Notes under the pieces: model-generated | The model's database searches: none | The model's input: only the letters and a program-made list of their open reading frames with translations | What the model was told of the DNA's origin: nothing | Made by a program: the position numbers and the translations under genes | From: Mesorhizobium sp. Pch-S | GTDB lineage: Bacteria; Pseudomonadota; Alphaproteobacteria; Rhizobiales; Rhizobiaceae | DNA length: 64,000 bases | NCBI RefSeq assembly: GCF_004136315.1 | Contig: NZ_CP029562.1 | Coordinates: 1,116,001 to 1,180,000, forward strand | Reading direction: 5' to 3' | Shown: positions 7,325 through 19,563 of the stretch, piece by piece | How the letters are laid out: the number at the start of each line of letters is the position of its first letter | Numbering within the stretch: position 1 is the stretch's first letter

Positions 7325-8257
7325 TCAGGTGGGCGACGGGATGCCGGTGGTGCCGGGTCGCGCCGGCCGCGACTGCCGCCGCAGCTCCAGGCCGATATGC
7401 ACGAGCAGGGCGGCAACGACGACGACACCCCCGACCATGGTGCGGGCGGAAGGCACCTCGCCATGCACCAGCCAGACCCAGATCGGCCCCAGGATGGGCT
7501 CGAATGTGCCAAGCAGTGCCGCCACGGCCGCCGGAACCAGCCTGGCGCCGGTGGCAAAGAAGGCGAGGCCTACGCCGAGATTGATGACGCCGAAGGCGAA
7601 CAGGAAACCCATGTCGCGCGGCGAAACCGCGAACTGGCCAACCTGCGAAGCGGCAAAAAGCGCGGCAAGGATCGTGCCGAGGCAGGTGGCCGGCGTCATG
7701 CGCACCTGGGCAAAGCGACGGGTGATGACGGTGGCGATCGAAAACATGAAGGCGATGAGCAGCGCCAGCCCGTCGCCGATCGGCGACACGGCGCCGCCGA
7801 GCGATTCCGAGACCATGATGGCGACGCCGACAATCACGCCGGCGATCGCCGCCCAGGTGGCAGCAGAGACTTTCTCGCGAAACAGCAGCCAGCTCAGCAG
7901 CGCCGCCAGCAAGGGGACGCCAGCCTGCATGAGCAGGATGTTGGCGACCTTGGTGTAGGAGAGCGCGACGACGAAACAGGTGGAAGCGGTGGCGAAACAG
8001 ACGGCGACCGCAAGACCCGGCAGCCCCATGTCACGGAACAGCTTCAGCGTTCCGCGCGGACCGTCGCGCCATGCCATGAAAGCAATCAGGAAGGCGGCTG
8101 CCCAGACCGAGCGCCAGAACACCACCGTCCAGCTGTCATCGATCGTTATGAAGCGCGCGATGGTGCCGCCAAGGCTCCACATCAGGGCGGACAGGAACAC
8201 CAGCAGATAGCCGATGCGTTCCTCGCGCAATGCCGATGGTTGAGCGATGGCGTTCAT
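7325..8257 (-). CDS. EamA/DMT-family inner-membrane exporter
   Basis: A 310-residue protein with ten predicted membrane helices arranged as two EamA repeats (about residues 10-145 and 155-290). The first helix is GYLLVFLSALMWSLGGTIAR and the second repeat ends near LGTFEPILGPIWVWLVHGE, a typical EamA ending. I start at ATG 8257, which has AAAGGTGGG upstream; the open frame continues 54 codons further without family character. The DMT superfamily exports amino acids, nucleosides or other small metabolites. It is monocistronic here and the substrate cannot be told. Confidence 0.82.
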   Translation of the reverse strand: MNAIAQPSALREERIGYLLVFLSALMWSLGGTIARFITIDDSWTVVFWRSVWAAAFLIAFMAWRDGPRGTLKLFRDMGLPGLAVAVCFATASTCFVVALSYTKVANILLMQAGVPLLAALLSWLLFREKVSAATWAAIAGVIVGVAIMVSESLGGAVSPIGDGLALLIAFMFSIATVITRRFAQVRMTPATCLGTILAALFAASQVGQFAVSPRDMGFLFAFGVINLGVGLAFFATGARLVPAAVAALLGTFEPILGPIWVWLVHGEVPSARTMVGGVVVVAALLVHIGLELRRQSRPARPGTTGIPSPT

Positions 8258-8415
8258 GGCCCACCTTTGCCCTTTCGCAGGCGACGCAGTGTGTGGGGGG
8301 CGACAGAATTTGCCGGTTTCCAATTGCCCCCTGAGCAGACAGAGCGTGAAAGAACCGATACGGGCAAGGGCCGGACTGCCCGCATCGTTTGTTCCAATCG
8401 GGGACCGCCAGCCGA

Positions 8416-8793
8416 TCACTCCGGCAACGGTGCCGCCTGTCCGGGCGACTTGGCATAGCCGAGTGCTTCCACGATCAGACCATCCCTGACCCGCATCAGA
8501 TTGACGCCACGCACCGAACCGCCGTCGCCGAAATTGAAACGCCAGCGGATGACGGCGTCGTCGCCCATCGCGGTGATATCCTCGAGCTCGAAATAGGCAA
8601 CGCGATCGGCGGCGATGGCATGCCAGAAGGCAAGGCAGGCTTCGCGGCCTTCGTAGCGGGTGCCGTTGGGGGCCGGCTGGATCGATTCCATGACGCAGTC
8701 CTCGGCGATCAGGTCGTCGAGAAGCGCAGGCCGATGTTCCTGGAATGCCTGGTTGAAGCGCCGCATGATGTCAAACGTACCGGTCGAGTGCAT
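8416..8793 (-). CDS. SnoaL-like/NTF2-fold protein
   Basis: A 125-residue protein of the SnoaL/NTF2-like fold. The opening MHSTGTFDIMRRFNQAFQEH is the usual first helices, followed by LDDLIAEDCVMES, EGREACLAFWHAI and a beta-rich C-terminal half (DDAVIRWRFNFGDGGSVRGVNL). Many members are small polyketide-cyclase-like or isomerase-like enzymes, or are non-enzymatic. ATG 8793 follows GAGGAAG. The gene diverges from a TetR gene and a double operator lies between them, so it is probably that regulator's target. Substrate unknown. Confidence 0.75.
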   Translation of the reverse strand: MHSTGTFDIMRRFNQAFQEHRPALLDDLIAEDCVMESIQPAPNGTRYEGREACLAFWHAIAADRVAYFELEDITAMGDDAVIRWRFNFGDGGSVRGVNLMRVRDGLIVEALGYAKSPGQAAPLPE

Positions 8794-8819
8794 GTCTTCC
8801 TCCTGATGATTGATAAAAG

Positions 8820-8862
8820 ACAGACAGGTCTGTCTACCATTGAAATAGACAGACCTGTCTGT
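8820..8862. promoter_or_regulatory. Duplicated TetR-type operator between divergent genes
   Basis: Two 16-base sites, ACAGACAGGTCTGTCT (8820-8835) and its exact reverse complement (8847-8862), are 11 bases apart. Each is itself a near-palindrome around AGACAG..CTGTCT. They sit between the SnoaL-like gene start and the TetR gene start, the expected place for an autoregulatory, divergent operator. Confidence 0.8.
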
Positions 8863-8875
8863 TAGTGTCAACTCC

Positions 8876-9445
8876 ATGCAAAAGACTGCTGACATGATCG
8901 ACGTCCCACCCGCCCGTCGCCTGCTGGATACGGCGGGCCGGCTCTTCTACGCCGAAGGCATCCACGCCGTCGGCATCGACCGCATCATCGCCGAGGCGGG
9001 TGTGGCCAAGGCGACGTTCTACAAGCACTTTCCGTCGAAGGATGATCTCGTCGTCGCCCATATCGAAGAACAGGACCGGCAGGGGCGTGCCTATGTGGCC
9101 GCTCTGCCGCCCAGGCCACCACGCGAAATGATCGCCGCGATCCTGGGACGCATCGGCAATGCGGCGACCGATGCCGACTACCGGGGCTGCGTGTTCCTCA
9201 ATGCCGCGGCGGAATATCCCGATCCGGCGAGCCCGGTGCGGCGGGCGGTGGATACGCGCCGTGCATGGTATCGCGACAGCCTGCACAAACTGTGCACCGC
9301 CAGCGGCGACCCGTCTCCCGCAATCACGGCCGGCCTGCTTGTCGCGCTGTCGGACGGCCTGCTGGAAGGCGCCTATCTCGACGACCCGGCTGCAATCCCT
9401 GCCCTGATCGAGGATGCCATCGCCCGGCTCCTGCCGAATGCCTGA
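8876..9445 (+). CDS. TetR/AcrR-family transcriptional repressor
   Basis: A 189-residue TetR-family regulator. The N-terminal HTH reads RLLDTAGRLFYAEGIHAVGI then AEAGVAKATFYKHFPSKDDLV (residues 14-60). The C-terminal ligand domain includes GCVFLNAAAEYPDP. ATG 8876 and ATG 8894 are both possible starts; neither changes the HTH. The gene begins 14 bases after the double operator, so it almost certainly represses itself and the divergent SnoaL-like gene. The ligand is unknown. Confidence 0.88.
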   Translation: MQKTADMIDVPPARRLLDTAGRLFYAEGIHAVGIDRIIAEAGVAKATFYKHFPSKDDLVVAHIEEQDRQGRAYVAALPPRPPREMIAAILGRIGNAATDADYRGCVFLNAAAEYPDPASPVRRAVDTRRAWYRDSLHKLCTASGDPSPAITAGLLVALSDGLLEGAYLDDPAAIPALIEDAIARLLPNA

Positions 9446-9482
9446 CCGGCGGCAATGCCCAGGCAGCAGGCCGTGATGGAGA

Positions 9483-10910
9483 TCACTTCGCCTGCTTCAA
9501 CGCTTCCGCCAGCACCGCATCCTCACCGGCGGCATAGCTTGCGAATGTCTGCGCGACAGGAATGGCGGGAGCCAGCGAACCCGACGGGGTGCCATAGACG
9601 TAGTTGAGGAAGAAGCACGTCGTGACCTGCGCCAGTCCGCAGCCGTCTTCCCAGTCGTGATAGGCGGTGGTGTAGCGGACCGTCAGCCTGGAATTCGGCA
9701 AGGTGACATTGCCACCCTCGCCCCAGAATTTCGACCGGTCGCCCATCGGCTCACCCACCAGGATGCCGCGCCCGCCGGCATGGTATTTCAGCATCGCCGC
9801 CGTGCTGAGCGCCGCCGAAAAGGTCGTACCGCTGGTGAGGATCAGGACCTTGCCGTCCTGCGGCACGAGCCCGGGCAACTGCTTCGAGAAATCGGCGCTT
9901 TGCGTGTAGTCGCCGCCTGGGTTGAACCGCAGGTCCACCACCGCGTTCCTGATCCGGCGCGTCTTCGCCTCGGCCAGTACATCGGCGAGATAGCCATGCA
10001 GGGATTTGCCGTCCTGGTCACGCACCCGGTTGATCTGGACATAGAGGACGCTGCCACCGGCCAGGTAGTCATGCCAGAAATACTGATCGGGACGCGCCAG
10101 CGCCGGCGGAACCTGGATGCCTTGCAGCACATGAATCCATGCACCTGTATCGCCCGGAACGGGAACGGGGCTCAGATAACGCCTGGGCCACGGGTTCCTG
10201 GGCAGCAGTTCCGGCGCACCCGGCAGGGCGGCGAGCTTCTGCACGCGCTCCGTCCCGTCACGCAGGCGCAATGCGAACTCGCTGACATCCGGGCTGTCGG
10301 CAAGGCCTGCCGCATGGAGAAGCTCCGGTGACACAAGCAGATTTGGCGAGAGCTCCCGCGCCAGATTGGCGGGGCCGCCGACATAAGCGCGCAACGCTTC
10401 GACCATCTGCTCGGGAGACTGACCATTCATGGCGAGGACCTGCGCACCGGGAAGGTCGCGCCGGTCAGGACTGGCCGCAACCACGTACAGGCCGTCGGCA
10501 AACCAACCGAGACGCACCGGCAGGACGTTGAAGCCATGGCCACCGACAAGTCCTCCGACATTGGTGTGGCCGTTGTCGGCAAGCGCCACCGCATGCGCGA
10601 CGCCCATCGCAAAGGCGGCGCGGTCGAGATCCGGAGCACGTGCCTCAAGCTTGTCCACAGCGACCTCGAAGGCCGAACGGGTCTGATCTGTGAAGCTTCG
10701 CTCCACGTCAGGCAGCCGTCGCAGCAGGTCGAGATCCTGCTGGTTCTTCTCGGACTGCGACGCTGCCGGCGGAAACGTCATCGCCGGATAGGACTTGAAG
10801 GTGGGATAGAGAATGTATGCGGCAGGAGCCACCACGAGTACCAGAACGGCGACCACAATGATGGCGATGCGCTTCAGCCAGCGCCGCACGGGACGATCGG
10901 GACCAGCCAT
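9483..10910 (-). CDS. S41-like (C-terminal processing peptidase fold) membrane-anchored protein
   Basis: About 475 residues. One N-terminal membrane helix (IAIIVVAVLVLVVAPAAYIL) places the rest outside the membrane. The second half has S41 features: VDLRFNPGGDYTQS, then VLILTSGTTFSAALSTAAML, in which the Ser after TF occupies the nucleophile position, then VGEPMGDR. A PDZ-like segment (GAQVLAMNGQSPEQMV) precedes it. The canonical Ser-Lys dyad lysine is not evident to me, so it may be a divergent or inactive relative. ATG 10910 (MAGPDRPV) has GAGGG upstream and is preferred to a start 24 codons earlier. Confidence 0.65.
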   Translation of the reverse strand: MAGPDRPVRRWLKRIAIIVVAVLVLVVAPAAYILYPTFKSYPAMTFPPAASQSEKNQQDLDLLRRLPDVERSFTDQTRSAFEVAVDKLEARAPDLDRAAFAMGVAHAVALADNGHTNVGGLVGGHGFNVLPVRLGWFADGLYVVAASPDRRDLPGAQVLAMNGQSPEQMVEALRAYVGGPANLARELSPNLLVSPELLHAAGLADSPDVSEFALRLRDGTERVQKLAALPGAPELLPRNPWPRRYLSPVPVPGDTGAWIHVLQGIQVPPALARPDQYFWHDYLAGGSVLYVQINRVRDQDGKSLHGYLADVLAEAKTRRIRNAVVDLRFNPGGDYTQSADFSKQLPGLVPQDGKVLILTSGTTFSAALSTAAMLKYHAGGRGILVGEPMGDRSKFWGEGGNVTLPNSRLTVRYTTAYHDWEDGCGLAQVTTCFFLNYVYGTPSGSLAPAIPVAQTFASYAAGEDAVLAEALKQAK

Positions 10911-11132
10911 GGGCGCCCTCAACGGTTGCGCAATTTCGGACGGGAAAATGAAGAGACAGCCGGCAAGCGTCAATGTCAGCAATGGCTAACATGCCATCTC
11001 TGCTGAAGCGATCCTGACAAAATGGCAGGACGCGACATGAGGCTTGCAACAGGCTGGTGCCGGCGTGCGATCCGGGATTTCGTCGCGCCGCAGGTCCGCA
11101 GGACCTCGAAAGCACGGCAGTGCGCCGGACGC

Positions 11133-11921
11133 TCAGGGATCGATGACAAGGTATCCGAATTCGCCGTTCCGGTAGTGCTCGAAATGCCGGCAACCCTCGA
11201 TCATCGGATCCAGCCGTGCGCGGCTGAGATAACCCGTCTCCACGTAGATCCGGCTCTGCCAGTTCCGGCGTCGTACCGAGTCGATGAAATCGATCAGGGT
11301 CACCACGGGGCCATCGGGATCGCAGATCGAAATGGGTGGCATCTGAGGACGCTCTTCCAGCTCGCGCCGGGTGTAGTCCGCGTCACCACCATATGGGATG
11401 TTCGCAATGATCACGTCGGGCTCCTGCATCCGCACGTCGTCCACGAAGTAGCTTTCCTGGAAATCGATCTCGGCCTGATGCGTCAGGGCATTTTCGCGTG
11501 CAAGCGCCAGCGCGTTGGGGTCGATATCACATGCGGAAATGACAAGGTCGGGCCGTGAGCACTTCAGCGAAATGGAGATCCAGCCGCAACCTGTGCCGAC
11601 TTCCAGCAGGGACCCCTCCTTCGGCGCCTCTGCCATCACGCGCTCGATCAGCTCTTCAGTGTAGGCATCAGGGATGTAACTGCGCCGATCGATCTTGAAT
11701 TTGCGCCCCAGCATTTTTGCCCAGCCTCGAAGATAGGCATTTGGTTCACCGAACTTCTTGCGGATCGCCAGACGGCGCAGCAGAGCGCCATCGCCGGCTG
11801 CCAAGTGCAATATCTCCAGGATTTCCTCTTGAGGCACATCGCGCTTCTCAAGCATGGACATAATATCCAGCTGGAACTTGCTATCCTCCATCTTCAAAAT
11901 TTGCGTTTCAGCAATATTCAT
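11133..11921 (-). CDS. PrmC/HemK-like class I SAM-dependent methyltransferase
   Basis: A 262-residue protein with a helical N-terminal domain (about residues 1-90) and a Rossmann methyltransferase domain. Motif I is LLEVGTGCGWISI, and SACDIDPNALALAREN binds the SAM ribose. The catalytic NPPY-type motif reads NIPYGGD. NPPY enzymes methylate amide or amino nitrogens. Here the first Pro is Ile, and the partner genes are metabolic rather than release-factor genes (no prfA neighbour), which argues for a small-molecule substrate. Its ATG overlaps the end of the exporter gene upstream by 14 bases, with GGAGAAAGCAG as ribosome site, so the two are co-translated. Confidence 0.75.
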   Translation of the reverse strand: MNIAETQILKMEDSKFQLDIMSMLEKRDVPQEEILEILHLAAGDGALLRRLAIRKKFGEPNAYLRGWAKMLGRKFKIDRRSYIPDAYTEELIERVMAEAPKEGSLLEVGTGCGWISISLKCSRPDLVISACDIDPNALALARENALTHQAEIDFQESYFVDDVRMQEPDVIIANIPYGGDADYTRRELEERPQMPPISICDPDGPVVTLIDFIDSVRRRNWQSRIYVETGYLSRARLDPMIEGCRHFEHYRNGEFGYLVIDP

Positions 11922-12804
11922 CTGCTTTCTCCAACCGGGTTGCAGCTACTGTGGCGTTTCTGCTGGGGAAAAAAGAGGCGATCGTTACGCCCACTATGAT
12001 CAGGCTTCCCCCGACGATCGTTTCAATCGATGGCGTCTCCCCCAGAAAGGCTGCCCCTCCGGCGATCGACACGGCCGGCACCAAAAGGAGATAGGGGGCC
12101 ACGAGATTGATCGCATGGCGAGAGATCAGGAAGTACCAAGTGCCGATCCCCCCTGCCGTCATGACGATCCCGAGATAGATGACCTGCAGCCAATTGGTCG
12201 CCGACGCGGTCCAGATCGACTGCATCTGCTGCTCCTCAAAAACAAAAGAGAGAATGACGAGCTGCGGCGCTGCCAGGAGCGACAAGGCGCCGAGCAAACT
12301 GAAGCTGGCGGTCAGGCTGAGCCTGCGGATCATCAACTGCCCGGTCGACCAGATCACCATGCTGACGACCGCCAGAATGACAGGGAAGAAACCACCGGAC
12401 ACAACTGGCCTCCCGGCTACGAAGATCACGCCGACGAAGGAGACGATCACCCCGATAATGATTGTCCGGCTGGGGATCTCCCGCAGGAAGAGCGCCGACA
12501 TGACGATCAATATGGGAGCCTCCATCTGAGCCAACATCACAGTAATGGAGACATCCAACTGACTCAGGCTATAATTGGAAAGACTGTATGGAATACTTAT
12601 TGATAAGATCGATAGAACAATAATATTCTTGAGTTTAAGATCCTTCCATTGACAGAACGGAAGCATGACGACGCCCGCACACGCGAACCGAAACGCGGCC
12701 ATGAGTATTGGCGGAAAATGATCGAGCGCCGCTTTTCCGAAAACCCAGCCCAAACCAAAGACAACCGACAAGGTTAAGGCCAGAAACCTATGTGACCAAA
12801 CCAT
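11908..12804 (-). CDS. EamA/DMT-family exporter of the serine-derived-metabolite cluster
   Basis: A 298-residue exporter with ten predicted helices in two EamA halves; AGGAAAG precedes ATG 12804. Helix 1 is LALTLSVVFGLGWVFGKAAL. The second half contains MVIWSTGQLMIRRLSL and ends in a Lys/Arg tail that overlaps the methyltransferase start. Parts of the gene are very AT-rich: 12601-12660 is about 33 percent GC by count, against more than 60 percent in most neighbours. It diverges from the desaturase operon, and the 188-base gap between them must hold both promoters. It probably exports the product of the cluster or confers resistance to it. Confidence 0.8.
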   Translation of the reverse strand: MVWSHRFLALTLSVVFGLGWVFGKAALDHFPPILMAAFRFACAGVVMLPFCQWKDLKLKNIIVLSILSISIPYSLSNYSLSQLDVSITVMLAQMEAPILIVMSALFLREIPSRTIIIGVIVSFVGVIFVAGRPVVSGGFFPVILAVVSMVIWSTGQLMIRRLSLTASFSLLGALSLLAAPQLVILSFVFEEQQMQSIWTASATNWLQVIYLGIVMTAGGIGTWYFLISRHAINLVAPYLLLVPAVSIAGGAAFLGETPSIETIVGGSLIIVGVTIASFFPSRNATVAATRLEKADEYC

Positions 12805-12992
12805 TTACGGCTTTCCTCAGGAATTTTTGTCGAAGGTGAATTGCCGTCATTGTTTCTTACCTTCTGTTGAAAGGCAGCCACGATAAATTCGAAGTCCATA
12901 TGAATTTATTGAATCGCAGACGTCTACTTCGATAGTGCAGTATCGTCTGCATCGATGCTCGCACTTTTCTGCTCAACTTGAGGGGACAAAGA

Positions 12993-13949
12993 ATGTCACT
13001 TAATGGAAGCGATGTTCGTGCAAGATTTATCAAAAAATTTATGTACATTTCGAGGAAAAATACACGGTCCGAAGCAATACTCACCCTTCTTCTGGAAGTG
13101 ACTGCGATCACATCCTGCGTGCTGGCGTCCATCCTGATCCTGCAGCACTCTCTGCTGGCCTTCGTTGCATTCTATCCGATCGCGATCGCGATGATCGGCA
13201 TGCGCCTGAGATGCTTCGGCAATATCATCCACGAGTGCAGCCACGGCGGATTCGTCAGCGAGCGGACCTGGAACGAGGCGATCGGCCGCCTCCTTTCGAT
13301 CCTGCTTCTCTATTCCTTCAGCAACTATCGCCGAGACCACATCACCCATCACCAGTATACGGGCGACTATGAGCGGGACCGGGAATTCGCGGAAACCGCG
13401 AAGTTCAATTTCCATGAACCACTCACGTCGTCCCGCTGGATCCACTATCTGCGCCGCTTTTTCGTTCCCGAGACAATCCTGGCTTATACAGGCCGCACGT
13501 TTCTCGGGAACGACGAGAGCCTGCCCTGGAGAGCCGGACGGTTGCTCTATGTCGGTTTTCTTCTTGCTGCGGTCGGCGGCCTCGTCGTCCTCAATCCCCT
13601 TGCCATCGCTGTCGTTGCGTTCTGGATTGTACCGCTTTGCGTCGTCTTGCCCGCCATAGGCTACGCCACCGACATCATGGATCACGCAGGGCTCCTGCAG
13701 AACGAGGACGACATCGACAAGGCCCGAAACTACGTGGTCCAGAATGCATTCGTGCAATGGCTGCTCTTTCCGCGAAACGACTCCTATCATCTGTTCCACC
13801 ATCTCTTTCCGGCGGTATCGACGCGTTCCTTTCCGGAATGCCACGCAATCCTGATGTCCGAATGCCCGGAGTACGCGGCCCGTAAACACTCATTGATGGA
13901 GTGGATCGAGGATTTTCGCCACCGAACCCCCGCCCCTTCAATCGGCTAG
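12993..13949 (+). CDS. Membrane fatty-acid-desaturase-fold di-iron enzyme
   Basis: A 318-residue integral membrane oxidase with the three His boxes of the desaturase/hydroxylase superfamily: HECSH (about residue 77), HITHH (about 116) and HLFHH (about 261), separated by hydrophobic hairpins. ATG 12993 has GAGGGG upstream; a TTG 15 bases earlier is the only alternative. It opens a plus-strand set with the ParB-like, decarboxylase and SbnA-like genes. In this setting an amino-acid-derived substrate, as for RtxC in rhizobitoxine synthesis, is as plausible as a lipid; this is inference. Its stop codon overlaps a short repeat. Confidence 0.82.
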   Translation: MSLNGSDVRARFIKKFMYISRKNTRSEAILTLLLEVTAITSCVLASILILQHSLLAFVAFYPIAIAMIGMRLRCFGNIIHECSHGGFVSERTWNEAIGRLLSILLLYSFSNYRRDHITHHQYTGDYERDREFAETAKFNFHEPLTSSRWIHYLRRFFVPETILAYTGRTFLGNDESLPWRAGRLLYVGFLLAAVGGLVVLNPLAIAVVAFWIVPLCVVLPAIGYATDIMDHAGLLQNEDDIDKARNYVVQNAFVQWLLFPRNDSYHLFHHLFPAVSTRSFPECHAILMSECPEYAARKHSLMEWIEDFRHRTPAPSIG

Positions 13950-13990
13950 AGCAATTCCGCCGGGGTTCGCAGCGAACTCCAGAATTGCGC
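13948..13990. repeat. Short inverted intergenic repeat
   Basis: AGAGCAATTCCG and CCAGAATTGC face each other around a GGGTTCGCAGCGAAC hairpin directly after the desaturase stop. This resembles the AATTGCTC end of the larger bipartite repeats and could act as a processing or weak termination site. Confidence 0.5.
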
Positions 13991-14086
13991 ATGAACGGAG
14001 CATTGAAGGCCATTTTGCCTTCGACGGATGCTCAAGACACCAGAGTCCAATCCTGATCATTGCCTGCTACATGGGGAACAATTGCC

Positions 14087-14503
14087 ATGACCTCGGCATC
14101 CACCGCCTTGCCGGAATACAACATAGTCATGATACAGCTCGATGAGCTCAGACCCACCGAGGAGATCAACCTTGATCGGGCGATGTCGCTCTCAAAGGTC
14201 ATCTCCCGCGGCTCCGTCTGGACACGCCCGCTTCTGGTAGAGCTCAAACACTCACTTGTCATGGATGGCCACCATCGGCTGCATTGCGCGCGTCACCTGT
14301 CGCTCCGCAAGGTGCCCTGCATTCAGCTATCCTATGAGGATCCGAGGCTCTCCGTCACCTCGTGGGAAGATGAGGCCTCATTCGACACGAAGAAGATCTA
14401 TGAGGCCGGACTGTCCGGAAAGCTTCTCGGGTTCAAGTCCACGCGTCATCGCCTGGAGCCCCAGATTCCAGCCTGTGTGATCGCTCTAGACGCCTTGATG
14501 TAA
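14087..14503 (+). CDS. Small ParB/sulfiredoxin-fold protein, SbnI/SerK-like (putative free-serine kinase)
   Basis: A 138-residue protein consisting of a single ParB-N-terminal-like fold: QLDELRPTEEINLDRAMSLS, then VWTRPLLVELKHSLVMDGHH (the DGHHR nucleotide-site block), HLSLRKVPCIQLSYEDPRL, and SGKLLGFKSTRH near the end. It has no DNA-binding helical domain of true ParB and no parA neighbour. Short proteins with DGHHR and a terminal GK..K.TRH block belong to the group that includes archaeal SerK and staphylococcal SbnI, which phosphorylate free serine to O-phosphoserine. The next genes encode PLP enzymes including an SbnA-like one, which supports this reading. ATG 14087 is preferred to TTG 14060. 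Activity is inferred, not shown. Confidence 0.68.
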   Translation: MTSASTALPEYNIVMIQLDELRPTEEINLDRAMSLSKVISRGSVWTRPLLVELKHSLVMDGHHRLHCARHLSLRKVPCIQLSYEDPRLSVTSWEDEASFDTKKIYEAGLSGKLLGFKSTRHRLEPQIPACVIALDALM

Positions 14504-14512
14504 GAGGCTGCG

Positions 14513-15853
14513 GTGAGCATGGACACCCGGACAGCCCCTCTCCTCAGCAGCCCGATTCAAGAGCTCCTTTCAGAAAGGACTTCATTGTCGGACTGGGTAT
14601 CCGGCTTCGGATCTCCATTGCATGTGGTGTTTCCTGCCCAGGCCCGCGAGAATTATCGGCAATGGGAAGACCTGCTCGGAAGGGCTTACGGGTCATGCAA
14701 AATCCAGTTCGCCCTCAAGTCCTGCAAGTCATCGGCGCTTCTGCAGGCATTTGCGAAGGCCGGTGCCGGTGCCGACGTTTCATCAGCGCAAGAGATCGTG
14801 TCGGCCTTCGTCAACATGGTTTCTGCACATGATATGGCCATGACCGGGCCGGCAAAAACAAACCATGAAATGGCGCTTTGCCTGAAGCACCGGATCCCCA
14901 TTCATGTAGACTGCATCGAAGAGCTTCGACGGCTCCTGGACATTGCCGGATGGGCCGGCGATCCGGCACGATTGTTTCTGAGGCTGCGGCCTGGATCAGA
15001 AGCCAGATCCCGCTTCGGAATGTCACCTGACCAGATCGAGGAGTGCCTGAACCTGCTGAAAGCGGCTGGTGTCGACCAGATTGGCTACTCCTTCCACCTC
15101 AACGACTACGAGATGTCCTCCCGTGTCAGGGAACTGGGCCGCTGTCTGCAACTGGCTCGCCGCAGTCATGCCGCGGGGTTTCGGTGCTGCGGCATAGACA
15201 TTGGTGGCGGCTTCCCGATGCGCTACCTCGCAGGCTTCGATCGAGATACCTACAACAACGGTCCTCTCTGGTCGGGCAGATGCGCTTCCGGAACCTACCC
15301 CTATGCTGCCGAGACCTACGGCCCCTTTCATGCGGCGGCCGTGATCGCGACGGCGCTGGCCGATCCCACCGACCTTGCCTTTCTCGAGGCCGGGAACATC
15401 CCGATCCTGCTGCAACCTGGACGTTCACTGCTCGACCAATGTGGCGTCACCGCCTTTCGCGTGACCGAACTGAAAGCGCTGGACGAGAACAGCCAGATCG
15501 CCGTGCTCGACGGCATGTCATTCTCCTTGTCGGAAACATGGTTTGGAAGTGATTTCGTCCCCGAACCCATCATCATCAATGTCGGTAACCGGGCACCCAG
15601 GACGGCCGATCTGCACACATATCTGGTCGGGAGAAGCTGCCTGGAATCCGACGTCATCCGAAAACGCAGCATCCGGCCATCCAACGGTATCTCGGCGGGT
15701 GATCTCGTGGTCTTCGTGAATACGGCCGGATACCAGATGGATTCCAACGAAAGCGCCTTCCATCAGATTCCCCTGCCAAGAAAACTTGCCGCCGTACGCA
15801 AAAGCACCGGTTGGGCGTTCCACCTGGACGAACAGGGATCGAGGGAGGAGTGA
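14513..15853 (+). CDS. Fold-type III PLP-dependent decarboxylase (DapDC/SbnH/Y4yA-like)
   Basis: A 446-residue enzyme of the alanine-racemase/ornithine-DAP-decarboxylase fold. The PLP lysine is in QFALKSCKSSALL (about residue 69). SFHLN (about 195) stacks on the cofactor. DIGGGFPMRY is the phosphate-binding glycine loop, and LQPGRSLLDQ replaces the usual EPGR. GRSCLESD carries the active-site Cys and Asp contributed across the dimer, and NTAGYQMDSNESAF is the C-terminal Tyr block. It starts at GTG 14513 (or ATG 14519) nine bases after the ParB-like stop, with GAGGC as ribosome site. It is longer than LysA and closer in pattern to siderophore SbnH and rhizobial Y4yA proteins. It probably decarboxylates an amino-acid conjugate. 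Confidence 0.78.
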   Translation: MSMDTRTAPLLSSPIQELLSERTSLSDWVSGFGSPLHVVFPAQARENYRQWEDLLGRAYGSCKIQFALKSCKSSALLQAFAKAGAGADVSSAQEIVSAFVNMVSAHDMAMTGPAKTNHEMALCLKHRIPIHVDCIEELRRLLDIAGWAGDPARLFLRLRPGSEARSRFGMSPDQIEECLNLLKAAGVDQIGYSFHLNDYEMSSRVRELGRCLQLARRSHAAGFRCCGIDIGGGFPMRYLAGFDRDTYNNGPLWSGRCASGTYPYAAETYGPFHAAAVIATALADPTDLAFLEAGNIPILLQPGRSLLDQCGVTAFRVTELKALDENSQIAVLDGMSFSLSETWFGSDFVPEPIIINVGNRAPRTADLHTYLVGRSCLESDVIRKRSIRPSNGISAGDLVVFVNTAGYQMDSNESAFHQIPLPRKLAAVRKSTGWAFHLDEQGSREE

Positions 15854-15856
15854 ACG

Positions 15857-16900
15857 ATGATCGTCGAGAATATTCTGGAAACAATCGGCAACACACCTGT
15901 TCTCCACATCGCATTGAGGGGTGGCGAAGTCAGTCTTTTCATCAAGCTGGAGATGTTCAATCCGACCGGCTCCATGAAGGACCGGATGGCTCTGAGCATG
16001 ATACGGAACCTGCCGCATGGCGAATACGGAGCCCCTCCTGAGGTCGTGGAATCCTCCTCGGGAAACACGGCAAGCGGGCTTTCGATGATCTCCGCGGTGA
16101 TGGGCATGAAGTTCACCGCATTGATGGATCATCATGCCAGCTCGGACAAGATCAACACAGTGCGGGCCCTTGGGGGCGCGGTCATCGTTGTGGGAAATCC
16201 TGACGGAACGCTGGCCACCGGCATGCGTGACAGCATGGCCAGGGAGATGTCCCTCAAGGAAGGCGTCCATTGGACGGAACAACATAACAACCCGGCCAAC
16301 AGCGAAGGATACGAAAGCCTGGCTGCCGAACTTCTCACGGATATCGGACCGAGCATCACCCATTTCGTTTCCGCCATCGGCACAGGCGGTTCCCTCTGCG
16401 GGACAGCCCGGGCGCTGCGCCGTGCACTTCCTGCCTTGCGGGTAATTGGTGTCGAGCCTGCCGGCAGCATTGTCTTCGGGGGCTCGGGCCATGTCTACCA
16501 TCAATCCGGCACTGGTACCCCTGCCGGAGCCGATGTTGGCCTGGTCATAGACTATGACGTGATCGACCATGGCCGGAAGGTCAGTGACGGAGCCGCGTTC
16601 TCGGTCTGCCGTTACCTCGCACGAAAGCACGGCCTCCTCGTTGGCGGGTCCACCGGCGGTGCCGTCTTTGAAGCACTCCGGATTGCGCGAGATGCACCGC
16701 GCGGCTCGAAGATCGTTACCTTGGCCTGCGATAGCGGAACCAAGTACCTGGACAGCATCTACAACGACGAGTGGCTCGTCGCACGCAATATAAGCCTCAC
16801 GAATATCGACGATGATTTCGCAGACGTCCTGATGGATACAACGAGTGTATCCGAGATTTTGCATCACAGGCCGGCAGATCTGGCGGAAGCACTCGCCTGA
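15857..16900 (+). CDS. SbnA-like PLP-dependent beta-replacement enzyme (cysteine-synthase fold)
   Basis: A 347-residue fold-type II PLP enzyme. The Schiff-base lysine lies in NPTGSMKDRMAL (about residue 43), the substrate loop is ESSSGNTASGL (about 66-76), and the phosphate loop is SAIGTGGSLCGT (about 174-185). VEPAGSIVFGG and LACDSGTKYLDSIYNDEWL closely parallel SbnA, which uses O-phosphoserine. GSMKDR rather than GSVKDR also matches SbnA. The start is three bases after the decarboxylase stop, with GGAGG before it. No SbnB-like dehydrogenase follows, so the product is probably not plain 2,3-diaminopropionate made by the staphylococcal route. It could also be a house-keeping cysteine synthase paralogue, but the context argues against that. 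Confidence 0.82.
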   Translation: MIVENILETIGNTPVLHIALRGGEVSLFIKLEMFNPTGSMKDRMALSMIRNLPHGEYGAPPEVVESSSGNTASGLSMISAVMGMKFTALMDHHASSDKINTVRALGGAVIVVGNPDGTLATGMRDSMAREMSLKEGVHWTEQHNNPANSEGYESLAAELLTDIGPSITHFVSAIGTGGSLCGTARALRRALPALRVIGVEPAGSIVFGGSGHVYHQSGTGTPAGADVGLVIDYDVIDHGRKVSDGAAFSVCRYLARKHGLLVGGSTGGAVFEALRIARDAPRGSKIVTLACDSGTKYLDSIYNDEWLVARNISLTNIDDDFADVLMDTTSVSEILHHRPADLAEALA

Positions 16901-16978
16901 ACCAGGTCGACAAGGAAACGCAGTCGCGGCCGCGGCCTCCATCAGGCGCCTGATCGCATGGCAGCGCGGTCAACGCGT

Positions 16979-17902
16979 TCAGGGCCGCATGATCTGGTTC
17001 ACGGTGCGCTTCAGCAGGGCTCTGAGCTGTTTTGTCGCTTCTCTTTGGGAGCGTCTCTTAGGGGTCAGGAGGTAGTAGCCATAAGGCGCATCGACCCACT
17101 GGTTAAACGGGCTCACCAGATTGCCGCGTCGAACCTCTTCGCCGACGGTGACATAGTCCATCATGGCAACGCATTGGCTCACCTTGAGCACTTCGACCGT
17201 AAATCTCGAACCTTTCACCGCATGTCCGAGTGAGATCTCGAATTTTCGGGCATACTCTTCGCTGTAGAAGGATTTCGCCCAATAGTACCATGTCGAACGA
17301 CCTTCCGGCGTCGATTCCGGTGAGGGCAACCGGGTGAGTTTCAGATAATCATCCACATTCTCGATAAGACGAGCCGTTTCGGGCGTACATACCGGGGCGA
17401 TCTTGTCCGTGAAAAGCAACTCGGAATCCGCATCCACGTAGTCCCCGCCGCCGTAGCGGATCGCGAAGTCTACCGTGTTGCGATCGAAACTCAGCGGTAC
17501 AGGCGAAAAATCACATTGAATATGAAGCCCCGGGAAGCGGAGCTCGAGTGCGGCCAACTGCTCCGCGAGCCAGGAGATTGCGAGTGTCGGAACGCATGTG
17601 ATGCGCAGTGGCCCGGACACTTCGTGCCGCATCAAACTATCGGTGGCATTGATAAGGATGTCGAAGCCTGGCCGAATTGCATCAGAATACATGCGCCCCT
17701 GCGGCGTCAGTGTAATCGAGTTCGTTGTTCGAGCGATGAGCTTGGTGCCCAGGAACTCTTCAAGCGTCTGAAGGTGATGGGTTACCGATGGAGGCGATAT
17801 CCCCAGTTCGAGCGCGGCCTTCGACATGCTTTCCTGCCGAGCGATCGCATCGAACGCACGGATTGCGTTCAGGGGTGGCAATTTTGACCGCGTCCCTTTC
17901 AT
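16979..17902 (-). CDS. LysR-family transcriptional regulator (GcvA-like)
   Basis: A 307-residue LysR protein. The N-terminal winged HTH reads LNAIRAFDAIARQESMSKAA then ELGISPPSVTHHLQTLEEFL (residues 11-52), and a periplasmic-binding-like effector domain follows (about 95-300). The spacing and the phrase PPLNAIRAFDAIAR are typical of GcvA-type members, many of which respond to amino acids. It converges on the SbnA-like gene (79-base gap), so it does not share a promoter with the biosynthetic genes but lies inside the same island. It is the obvious candidate activator. Confidence 0.85.
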   Translation of the reverse strand: MKGTRSKLPPLNAIRAFDAIARQESMSKAALELGISPPSVTHHLQTLEEFLGTKLIARTTNSITLTPQGRMYSDAIRPGFDILINATDSLMRHEVSGPLRITCVPTLAISWLAEQLAALELRFPGLHIQCDFSPVPLSFDRNTVDFAIRYGGGDYVDADSELLFTDKIAPVCTPETARLIENVDDYLKLTRLPSPESTPEGRSTWYYWAKSFYSEEYARKFEISLGHAVKGSRFTVEVLKVSQCVAMMDYVTVGEEVRRGNLVSPFNQWVDAPYGYYLLTPKRRSQREATKQLRALLKRTVNQIMRP

Positions 17903-18010
17903 CCGTACACTCCCAACGCTACTCCCTGACTAGAGAGGTGGCTCGCTTTGAACCGTACCGTCTGAGGTATTGCGGCGGACACTTGTGTAATTACGACATT
18001 GCCATGTTTC

Positions 18011-18097
18011 TCAGGCCGCACGGCGGGCCTCGCGCCAGATCCAAACAAGCGGTGGCAGCAGGATGAGACCCAACGTCTCCATGACCTGCGCGAGCAC
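18011..18097 (-). CDS. Candidate tiny membrane peptide downstream of the XRE regulator
   Basis: A 28-residue frame (GTG 18097, or ATG 18082 for 23 residues) reads MLAQVMETLGLILLPPLVWI and then a basic tail ending WREARRAA. That is a single hydrophobic helix followed by Arg-rich residues. AGGAG lies eight bases upstream, overlapping the end of the regulator gene, so it would be translated from the same transcript. It could be chance; only the ribosome site, helix and basic tail support it. Confidence 0.35.
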   Translation of the reverse strand: MLAQVMETLGLILLPPLVWIWREARRAA

Positions 18098-18108
18098 ACG
18101 GTGCTCTC

Positions 18109-19563
18109 CTACTGAAAATCGAAAGCGCTTAGGCCAGTGACCATCTCATCGAGACCCAGCGGGCGTGTGACCGGTGGCTCGGCGCGCGACAGGCAGCCGG
18201 AGCGCTCGCACAGGCGGCAGGCGGGACCGACTGGCGTTGCCTTGACCGCGCCGCTCTTGCCGCCAAGCGCCAGCGCGGGAAGCGCAGCGCCGTAGACGAT
18301 CTCGTCGCGGAAGGCGATGTCGCAGCCAAGCAGGATAGCGGTGCGGCGCGGCCGTTCCGAAAAAGCGCCCTGTGGTCCCTCCAGCGTGCGCGCGACAGTG
18401 AGGAACTCTGCGCCGTCCGGCATCTCGACCGCCTCGACGAAGATCTGGCCTGGCTGGGTGAAGGCGGCATGCACCGGCAGTTTCGGGCAGCCGCCGCCGA
18501 AACGGCTGTGCGGAAAACCCTGCGCGCCGCCGCGGCGGAAGCGGTTGCCGGCATTGTCGACCTCAAGCATGAAGAACGGCACGCCGGAAGCGCCGGCGCG
18601 CTGCAGCATGGTCAGCCGGTTGGCGGCCTGCTCGAAGGAGACGCTGAAGCGCGACCGCAGCACATCGACGTCGTAGCGGGCACGCTGGGCGGCGGAGAGA
18701 AAGGCCTGGTACGGCATCATCAGCGCATGCGCTGCATAGCGGCCGAGCTCGAAACGGGCGAGCCGCCTCGCCTCGTCGGACGACAGTTTGAGTGCCGCGA
18801 TCTCAGCCGCCACCGCCACCTGCATGCGGATCAGGCTCGCTTCCATCGCCACCTCGCGCAGCTGGTCGAAAGGCGACAGGCGCTCAGACAGGAACAGGCG
18901 CTGCGAATGACGATCATAGCGGCGCCGCCAGTTGGGCATCGTCGCGACAGGCAACACCTTGACGACGATGCCGTGTTCGCGCCGCAGCCATTCCTTCAGG
19001 GCGCCGAACAGGTCGTCGCCGGGGTTGAGCCCCGAATTGAGCAAAGTCGTGAACGCCTCGGCTTCTTCCTCGAGCGCCGGGAAATGATTGGGCCGGCGCT
19101 CGAAAACCTCATGCACCTCGTCGATCGGCAGGCGTGCACCGGAAAGCGCCGTGGTGTGGCCTTCGCGGGCAAGCAGTTCGGTAAGGTCCGACAGCCGCTC
19201 GGCCTGTTCGCGATAGGCGCGGAACAGCTTGATGACGGCCGCCGCTGCATTGGGGGCAGCCTCGGCGATCTCGACCAGCTCCTGGTCGCCCGGCAGTTCG
19301 CCGGCCAGCAGCGGATCGGTGAAGACCTCGCGCAAGGCCGAGATCGACCCGCGCGCCTCCCCCTGCAGTTCGTCCGGCTCGACCTTGTAGACGGAAGCAA
19401 GCTTGAGAATGAGCTGGACCGTCAGCGGGCGCTGGTTGCGCTCGATCAGGTTGAGATAGGAAGGCGAGATGCCCAGCCCCTCGGCCATCGCCGTCTGGGT
19501 CAGCCCCTTCTGGTTGCGGATGCGGCGGATGCGCGGACCGGCGAAGATCTTCTGCTCAGCCAT
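18109..19563 (-). CDS. XRE-family short-chain acyl-CoA-type regulator (ScfR/RamB-like)
   Basis: A 484-residue regulator. The Cro/C1-type HTH is at residues 8-65 (RIRRIRNQKGLTQTAMAEGL then SPSYLNLIERNQRPLT). A central IrrE/ImmA-like and DUF2083-type region follows, and the C-terminal Cys cluster GPACRLCERSGCLSRAEPP probably binds metal or a ligand. Proteins of this architecture (RamB, MccR, ScfR, PrpR-like) control acetate, propionate or glyoxylate genes. Here it sits 0.7 kb from aceA on the opposite strand. It starts six bases after the preceding small membrane protein stop, so the two are likely co-transcribed. Confidence 0.83.
   Translation of the reverse strand: MAEQKIFAGPRIRRIRNQKGLTQTAMAEGLGISPSYLNLIERNQRPLTVQLILKLASVYKVEPDELQGEARGSISALREVFTDPLLAGELPGDQELVEIAEAAPNAAAAVIKLFRAYREQAERLSDLTELLAREGHTTALSGARLPIDEVHEVFERRPNHFPALEEEAEAFTTLLNSGLNPGDDLFGALKEWLRREHGIVVKVLPVATMPNWRRRYDRHSQRLFLSERLSPFDQLREVAMEASLIRMQVAVAAEIAALKLSSDEARRLARFELGRYAAHALMMPYQAFLSAAQRARYDVDVLRSRFSVSFEQAANRLTMLQRAGASGVPFFMLEVDNAGNRFRRGGAQGFPHSRFGGGCPKLPVHAAFTQPGQIFVEAVEMPDGAEFLTVARTLEGPQGAFSERPRRTAILLGCDIAFRDEIVYGAALPALALGGKSGAVKATPVGPACRLCERSGCLSRAEPPVTRPLGLDEMVTGLSAFDFQ

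Follow-up and report, generated by a model that had tools for sequence, protein, structure and literature searches.

A seven-gene island of Mesorhizobium sp. Pch-S that may make and export a serine-derived amino acid or amine

Seven genes of Mesorhizobium sp. Pch-S, here called A to G, appear to form a cluster, gained by horizontal transfer, for making and exporting a small amino acid or amine derived from serine, a reading to which we give a probability of roughly 0.55. The genes lie in a window of 64,000 nucleotides, positions 1,116,001 to 1,180,000 of contig NZ_CP029562.1 in a 6.62 Mb single-contig genome. A sequence-only reading of this DNA had proposed seven genes and their families, and all seven open frames were confirmed at 11133-17902, each in its family (Table 1). 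Two starts were corrected, as homologues point to ATG codons for C and D; a longer frame of D is possible from 14060 (TTG). Sequence comparison and structural models support the enzyme classes, the residues of an O-phosphoserine step, and the linkage of the genes. From these we infer all of the activities, the order of decarboxylation, oxidation, and methylation, the nucleophile, and the product. The "modified amino acid or amine" of the sequence-only reading is a plausible product.

Table 1. Genes of the island and the extra DNA that contains them (positions in the window; L012 is a locus of Roseovarius aestuarii)
Feature	Position	Strand	Assignment	Basis or remark
Gene A	11133..11921	-	PrmC/HemK-type S-adenosylmethionine (SAM) methyltransferase	Pfam MTS/PrmC-like, NCBIfam, L012 orthologue
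Gene B	11908..12804	-	EamA/DMT-type exporter	14 bp overlap with gene A; Pfam, L012 orthologue
Gene C	12993..13949	+	Membrane diiron desaturase/hydroxylase (FA_desaturase)	Pfam, histidine boxes, tree
Gene D	14087..14503	+	Compact SerK/SbnI-type free serine kinase, 138 aa (predicted)	NCBIfam, residues, fold
Gene E	14513..15853	+	Fold-III pyridoxal phosphate (PLP) Orn/DAP/Arg decarboxylase	Relatives annotated Y4yA family
Gene F	15857..16900	+	Fold-II PLP (PALP) beta-replacement enzyme, Y4xP family	R124
Gene G	16979..17902	-	LysR-type regulator (GcvA-like)	Pfam, NCBIfam
Whole extra stretch	8229..18109			Absent from five same-genus genomes

The arrangement of the genes is found in a second genome. 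R. aestuarii, which judging by its name lies outside the order of the window, has A, B, C, D, E, and F arranged as in the window, both in order and in orientation. Identities to the window proteins are 57% for A, 44% for B, 42% for C, 41% for D, 43% for E, and 60% for F, and a LysR gene (38% identical to G) stands at the opposite end of the cluster. This supports the view, already taken in the sequence-only reading, that A to F and a LysR gene form one conserved cluster. The spacing of D, E, and F also bears out the tight linkage claimed for them: D ends at 14503 and E starts at 14513, while E ends at 15853 and F starts at 15857.

Genes E and F form a nearly constant pair. The family was surveyed in 86 loci: the best 80 of at least 481 confirmed relatives from a contig scan with an E alignment, four plasmid records, locus L138, and the window. 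Nearly all were picked for E. Sixteen gene types were tracked, and absence means absence within about 10 kb, with some contigs ending sooner. F is found in 82 of the 86 loci, an ornithine-cyclodeaminase gene (OCD, SbnB-like) in 70, C in three, and A in two. With F beside E in this many loci and the window F inside the family clade, the two genes belong to the Y4yA/Y4xP module. The near-constant pairing suggests that E acts on the product of F or a derivative of it.

Gene D is likely a SerK/SbnI-type free serine kinase. It has no Pfam match, and its NCBIfam match to SerK (1.3e-10, 40.9 bits) is below the archaeal SerK equivalog cut-off of 380 bits; the protein is about 100 residues shorter. D aligns with SerK residues E30, D69, H72, T223, and H225, the last two in a second, negative-scoring piece of the alignment. 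We take these to be catalytic and nucleotide-site residues, as PDB titles also indicate for E30. All five are conserved without exception in the 15 D proteins compared, and the overall fold of D matches SerK/SbnI ahead of other ParB-fold proteins. The residues and fold of D, together with an arginine of F, favor O-phosphoserine as a likely intermediate, in agreement with the sequence-only reading.

That arginine is a constant feature of the F family. Arg132, Tyr152, and Ser185 of SbnA are reported, in excerpts of PMC12414870, to select O-phosphoserine. R124 of gene F occupies the Arg132 column, which was set by a 19-residue spacing to a conserved Gln in one annotated SbnA, S. aureus SbnA being outside the alignment. 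Arginine is present in the window F, in 18 of 18 F proteins from loci lacking OCD, and in 65 of 65 OCD-associated F proteins (84 of 84), as well as in three of three annotated SbnA proteins, and in none of the three paralogues of the host. In a 41-row tree rooted on these paralogues, F-family, SbnA, and housekeeping enzymes are separated with strong support, the SbnA and housekeeping branches being long. Gene F is inside a 35-row family clade (100/99) and within it in a seven-row OCD-less clade (100/100); OCD-less members are spread over several clades. It is split at 99/91 from the host's three CysK/CBS-type paralogues, in a tree that has no CysM row. The tree and the residue census against these paralogues rule out a housekeeping cysteine synthase. 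Neither of the two findings that the sequence-only reading named as its refutation was made: E and F are not scattered apart, although D accompanies them in just 20 loci, and F does not group with the CysK/CBS-type enzymes in the tree.

The sequence-only reading had also called F SbnA-like, a label to be used with caution. On the SbnA model TIGR03945, F scores 225 bits against a cut-off of 350, and two annotated SbnA controls score 427 and 436. The host's own cystathionine-beta-synthase-like paralogue scores 244, so the SbnA profile by itself is misleading for F. Cut-off and clade together rule out a true SbnA. In a sample of 200 genomes of the phylum, a search for true SbnA at E<=1e-100 gave no matches, nor did any control match, so this negative carries no weight.

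Gene E is LysA-like by NCBIfam. Lys69, Phe194-His195, Gly231-233, Pro302-Gly303-Arg304, Cys376, Glu378, and Asp380 do not vary among the 24 members aligned; their roles are presumed from diaminopimelate decarboxylase. Beyond its own genome, close relatives of E (E<=1e-75) are found in 0 of 393 genomes of the family and 1 of 384 of the class, and relatives at E<=1e-60 in 3 of 145 same-genus genomes. Proteins 55-58% identical come from Mesorhizobium strains outside those species samples. One protein 85% identical to E (P0018), on a 6.48 Mb contig, is labelled Mycolicibacterium aubagnense; most of the other close homologues with names come from mesorhizobia, and the label may be wrong.

The island is compositionally odd, as had been claimed, and lies in DNA that relatives lack. 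Its GC content is 0.567, compared with 0.639 for the remainder of the window. This value is reached by three of 573 windows of the same length (step 100), all overlapping the island; the minimum among windows not overlapping it is 0.616. GC at third codon positions (GC3) is 0.66-0.73 in genes A to G and 0.81-0.87 in four host genes checked. In all five aligned same-genus genomes, taken from 15 with a right-flank match, the matches to positions 8228 and 18110 stand 189-209 bp apart. The extra DNA (about 8.23-18.11 kb, or about 9.9 kb) also contains SnoaL-like, TetR, and S41 peptidase genes. The latter two have GC contents of 0.665 and 0.641, while their GC3 (0.75-0.77) is below that of the host genes. 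This left third, with its near-normal GC, may be a separate event. No tRNA genes were found within the window that would mark a tRNA-borne island. A search for border repeats in 10400-18700, which excludes the left border at about 8.23 kb, turned up only two 20-nt repeat pairs, one direct and the other inverted. A second EamA transporter gene (7325-8419) flanks the insertion on the left and is common to relatives up to 8228.

Gene C has the features of the membrane diiron desaturase/hydroxylase superfamily. Its three histidine boxes (HX3H, HX2HH, HX2HH) are intact, and H85/H89, H121/H124/H125, and H271/H274/H275 (numbered from 12978) are invariant in seven of seven aligned proteins. The best NCBIfam model is GntB, an L-arginine gamma-hydroxylase (NF041365), at 97.8 bits against a cut-off of 380, and the closest named homologue is from Mesorhizobium sp. 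UC22_110. A profile of C at E<=1e-25 has six matches in 385 genomes of the class, including its own genome. One is GntB-level (386.5 bits on NF041365), and its neighbors include genes for a methyltransferase, a class-V PLP enzyme, and EamA; another is RtxC-type (302 bits) in an rtx-type locus; there are three further matches. Matches in 35 plasmid records are at best about 25-28% identical. The predicted structure has a pLDDT of 77.8, and a fold search with it gave two matches at E<=0.001. Both are to chains of chloroplast complexes that bear the name FADL, and they tell nothing about function. A reasoned guess is that C oxidizes a modified amino acid, by either hydroxylation or desaturation.

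In a genome of 1.6 Mb from the same class (L117, 6800-13230) the architecture is parallel: a GntB-level desaturase is accompanied by a methyltransferase, a class-V PLP enzyme, a diaminopimelate-epimerase-like protein, and an EamA gene. A genome of the same order has an rtx-type locus (L116, 3308-12370) with the RtxA-like frame in separate pieces.

Gene A, which has EVGTGCG and NIPY motifs, is likely a small-molecule N-methyltransferase; the NIPY motif fits nitrogen methylation. It scores 104 bits on TIGR03534 (PrmC), below the cut-off of 199, and a true PrmC is encoded elsewhere in the genome (G000:C1:3228061, 274.5 bits); these rule out a housekeeping PrmC. Matches to A occur in 52 plasmid records, those listed being PrmC or unnamed and none spanning 80% of the query. 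The methyltransferase gene that follows F in locus L009 has no meaningful match to A. Gene B would export the compound, as its family suggests.

These assignments can be combined into a pathway. D would phosphorylate free L-serine to O-phospho-L-serine, from which F would form an aminoacrylate and add an amino-acid nucleophile at the beta-carbon. E would then take off the carboxylate that stems from serine, so that a 2-aminoethyl group remains, C would hydroxylate or desaturate the acceptor amino acid, and A would methylate a nitrogen. B would export the product and G would regulate the genes. The likeliest nucleophile, held tentatively, is L-glutamate, because SbnA uses it (PMC12414870, in excerpt) and 70 of the 86 loci hold OCD. 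Homoserine is a doubtful candidate, and ammonia or another nucleophile takes up the remaining weight. Loci of the OCD-less clade lack an evident enzyme for splitting the adduct; E may therefore decarboxylate it directly, and the resulting N-(2-aminoethyl)amino acid would be modified by C and A. Because neither a receptor nor an NRPS-independent siderophore (NIS) synthetase is encoded in the cluster, the product is more likely an antimetabolite or signal for export than a metallophore. Neither NodC nor 1-aminocyclopropane-1-carboxylate (ACC) deaminase was found above cut-off in the genome, so a link to plant symbiosis or ethylene cannot be claimed.

Several results weigh against the proposed pathway. 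Among the 86 loci, D occurs in only 20, and the trio expected in the sequence-only reading holds together for E and F more than for D. The desaturase and exporter, which had been expected to accompany the trio, do so in the window and R. aestuarii, and a desaturase piece, beside another long reading frame, adjoins D-E-F in a metagenome-assembled genome (MAG) of Rhodovibrionaceae (L011), but they are not in the rest of the 20 D-holding loci. The complete set is found in two genomes only, and the closest relatives of F (L009 and L010) are without A, B, and C, although the contig of L010 stops about 1 kb past F. No SbnB or opine dehydrogenase to release diaminopropionate is found in the cluster here or in R. 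aestuarii, the rest of the genome not having been searched. The pocket of F differs from that of SbnA, since the equivalents of Tyr152 and Ser185 are His and Gly. In the Tyr152 column the window F, all 65 OCD-type proteins, and seven of the 18 OCD-less proteins have His, while seven have Ser and four Ala; Gly fills the Ser185 column across the F family and in one of three annotated SbnA proteins. Finally, C groups with its kin (95/95) and separately from the RtxC and GntB-like proteins (99/96), on long branches.

Other products can be drawn from the same genes. F might join O-phosphoserine to the hydroxyl of L-homoserine, giving oxa-cystathionine, which E would convert to O-(2-aminoethyl)homoserine and C to aminoethoxyvinylglycine (AVG), with possible N-methylation by A; this would be an oxyvinylglycine route independent of RtxA. 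Meso-diaminopimelate resembles cystathionine, and the LysA-like E would fit such a substrate. An RtxC-type protein is also among the homologues of C, beside aminotransferase-V and Cys/Met-type PLP sequences. RtxC performs the last step of rhizobitoxine synthesis, forming the enol-ether double bond from dihydrorhizobitoxine (excerpts of PMC5827301, PMC3222319, and PMC6304460). AVG and rhizobitoxine appear to begin from homoserine (PMC4357302, in part), and the genes for AVG are poorly known according to passages of PMC5827301. The position of C outside the RtxC/GntB clade, the OCD partners of F relatives, which favor glutamate, and the lack of support for a plant link make this route unlikely, and oxygen nucleophiles are rare for fold-II PLP enzymes. 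If the route is real, enzymes related to those of siderophore-precursor synthesis would have been recruited to make an inhibitor of PLP enzymes for export.

A metal chelator, related in reduced form to the staphyloferrin-like or opine-type metallophores, is equally improbable. The trio occurs with opine dehydrogenase and NIS synthetase in four of the 86 loci, and a TonB receptor is near E in 22, of which 20 also have F. Near the trio in the window and R. aestuarii, however, no NIS synthetase, opine dehydrogenase, or TonB receptor was found, the other R. aestuarii neighbors being mostly unclassified, and the seven genes include no importer. A diaminopropionate-type product is less probable still. 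D, F, and a NIPY-motif methyltransferase are all present for it: F would add ammonia or methylamine to O-phosphoserine, A would methylate, and E would act on the result or a side product. C and E are then left without clear roles, and the related SbnA takes an amino-acid nucleophile (PMC12414870, in excerpt). Least probable is a chance meeting of two unrelated groups, A-B and C-F, in one insertion, for which the other genes in the extra stretch and the nearest F relatives without A to C can be cited, as R. aestuarii keeps the order and orientations of A to F and lowered GC3 is common to A to G.

The partners of the D-E-F module vary among genomes. Exactly E, F, OCD, MATE, and a TauD-like gene are found in 33 of the 86 loci, and E, F, OCD, MATE, a TonB receptor, and an aminotransferase in 11. 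E and F occur with a D-Ala-ligase-like ATP-grasp gene in four loci, and L009 adds the trio with two ATP-grasp ligases. These four (L023, L044, L060, and L076, from Patescibacteria, Nomurabacteria, and Bacilli MAGs) are small clusters in small-genome lineages; L023, L060, and L076 also have homologues of arginase-family and radical-SAM genes, by Pfam on L023 only. Loci of Pseudomonas, Acinetobacter, and Thalassomonas (L016, L035, L070) combine E, F, OCD, and MATE with an aminotransferase and a TonB-receptor-like gene, no NIS synthetase being found, and are possible metallophore loci. In two loci (L013 and L138) the trio lies within a ketosynthase/ACP-like cluster and apparently feeds a polyketide-like pathway; a phosphopantetheinyl transferase gene adjoins F in L138. 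These loci show the "enigmatic" y4yB-y4yA-y4xP trio of rhizobia to be a portable building-block module, probably O-phosphoserine-dependent, with partners that differ between loci and include OCD and MATE, opine dehydrogenase and NIS synthetase, ketosynthase clusters, and ATP-grasp ligases. Here they are a membrane diiron oxidase, a methyltransferase, and an exporter. The F family is often annotated merely as cysteine synthase, and the cluster might reveal an exported amino-acid antimetabolite.

The cluster shares parts of its logic with several known systems. In the open-access literature, with subscription papers mostly outside, no description of it was found in titles or the opening lines of abstracts under y4yA/y4xP, the enzyme combination, AVG genes, or rtxC, and no paper on EDDS-type zincophore genes was found. 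The rhizobitoxine genes rtxACDEFG likewise include a membrane diiron enzyme that probably acts on a modified amino acid. Rhizobitoxine is built on RtxA, however, an aminotransferase joined to an O-acetylhomoserine-sulfhydrylase-like part (excerpts of PMC3222319), and no RtxA-like gene is among the seven. GntB is the best-scoring model for C, yet other guanitoxin models are absent from the NCBIfam matches shown for the seven genes. Staphyloferrin B synthesis by SbnA, SbnH, and SbnI has a serine kinase, an O-phosphoserine-dependent beta-replacement, and a fold-III decarboxylase in common with the predicted pathway. The island differs in the length of gene D (240-254 residues in SerK/SbnI chains), in the place of F outside the SbnA clade, and in having no SbnB, NIS synthetase, or siderophore receptor with it, absences already noted in the sequence-only reading.

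That reading took the sbn operon as the precedent, but the nearest one is the y4yB-y4yA-y4xP-y4xO-y4xN-y4xM module on pNGR234a of Sinorhizobium fredii NGR234. The role of these genes is termed enigmatic, and y4xP a cysteine synthase, in passages of a review (PMC3973906). The locus (L089, 9534-16579) is in the type III secretion system region, and its y4xP carries the O-phosphoserine arginine beside serine-kinase-like, decarboxylase, opine dehydrogenase, IucA/IucC, and MFS genes; it looks like a metallophore-type cluster rather than one for sulfur assimilation. In NGR234 the opine dehydrogenase, IucA/IucC, and MFS genes follow the trio, and there is no desaturase, methyltransferase, or EamA gene. 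The D, E, and F genes of the island are in the same order as their NGR234 counterparts and likewise tightly packed, with identities of 30%, 34%, and 43%.

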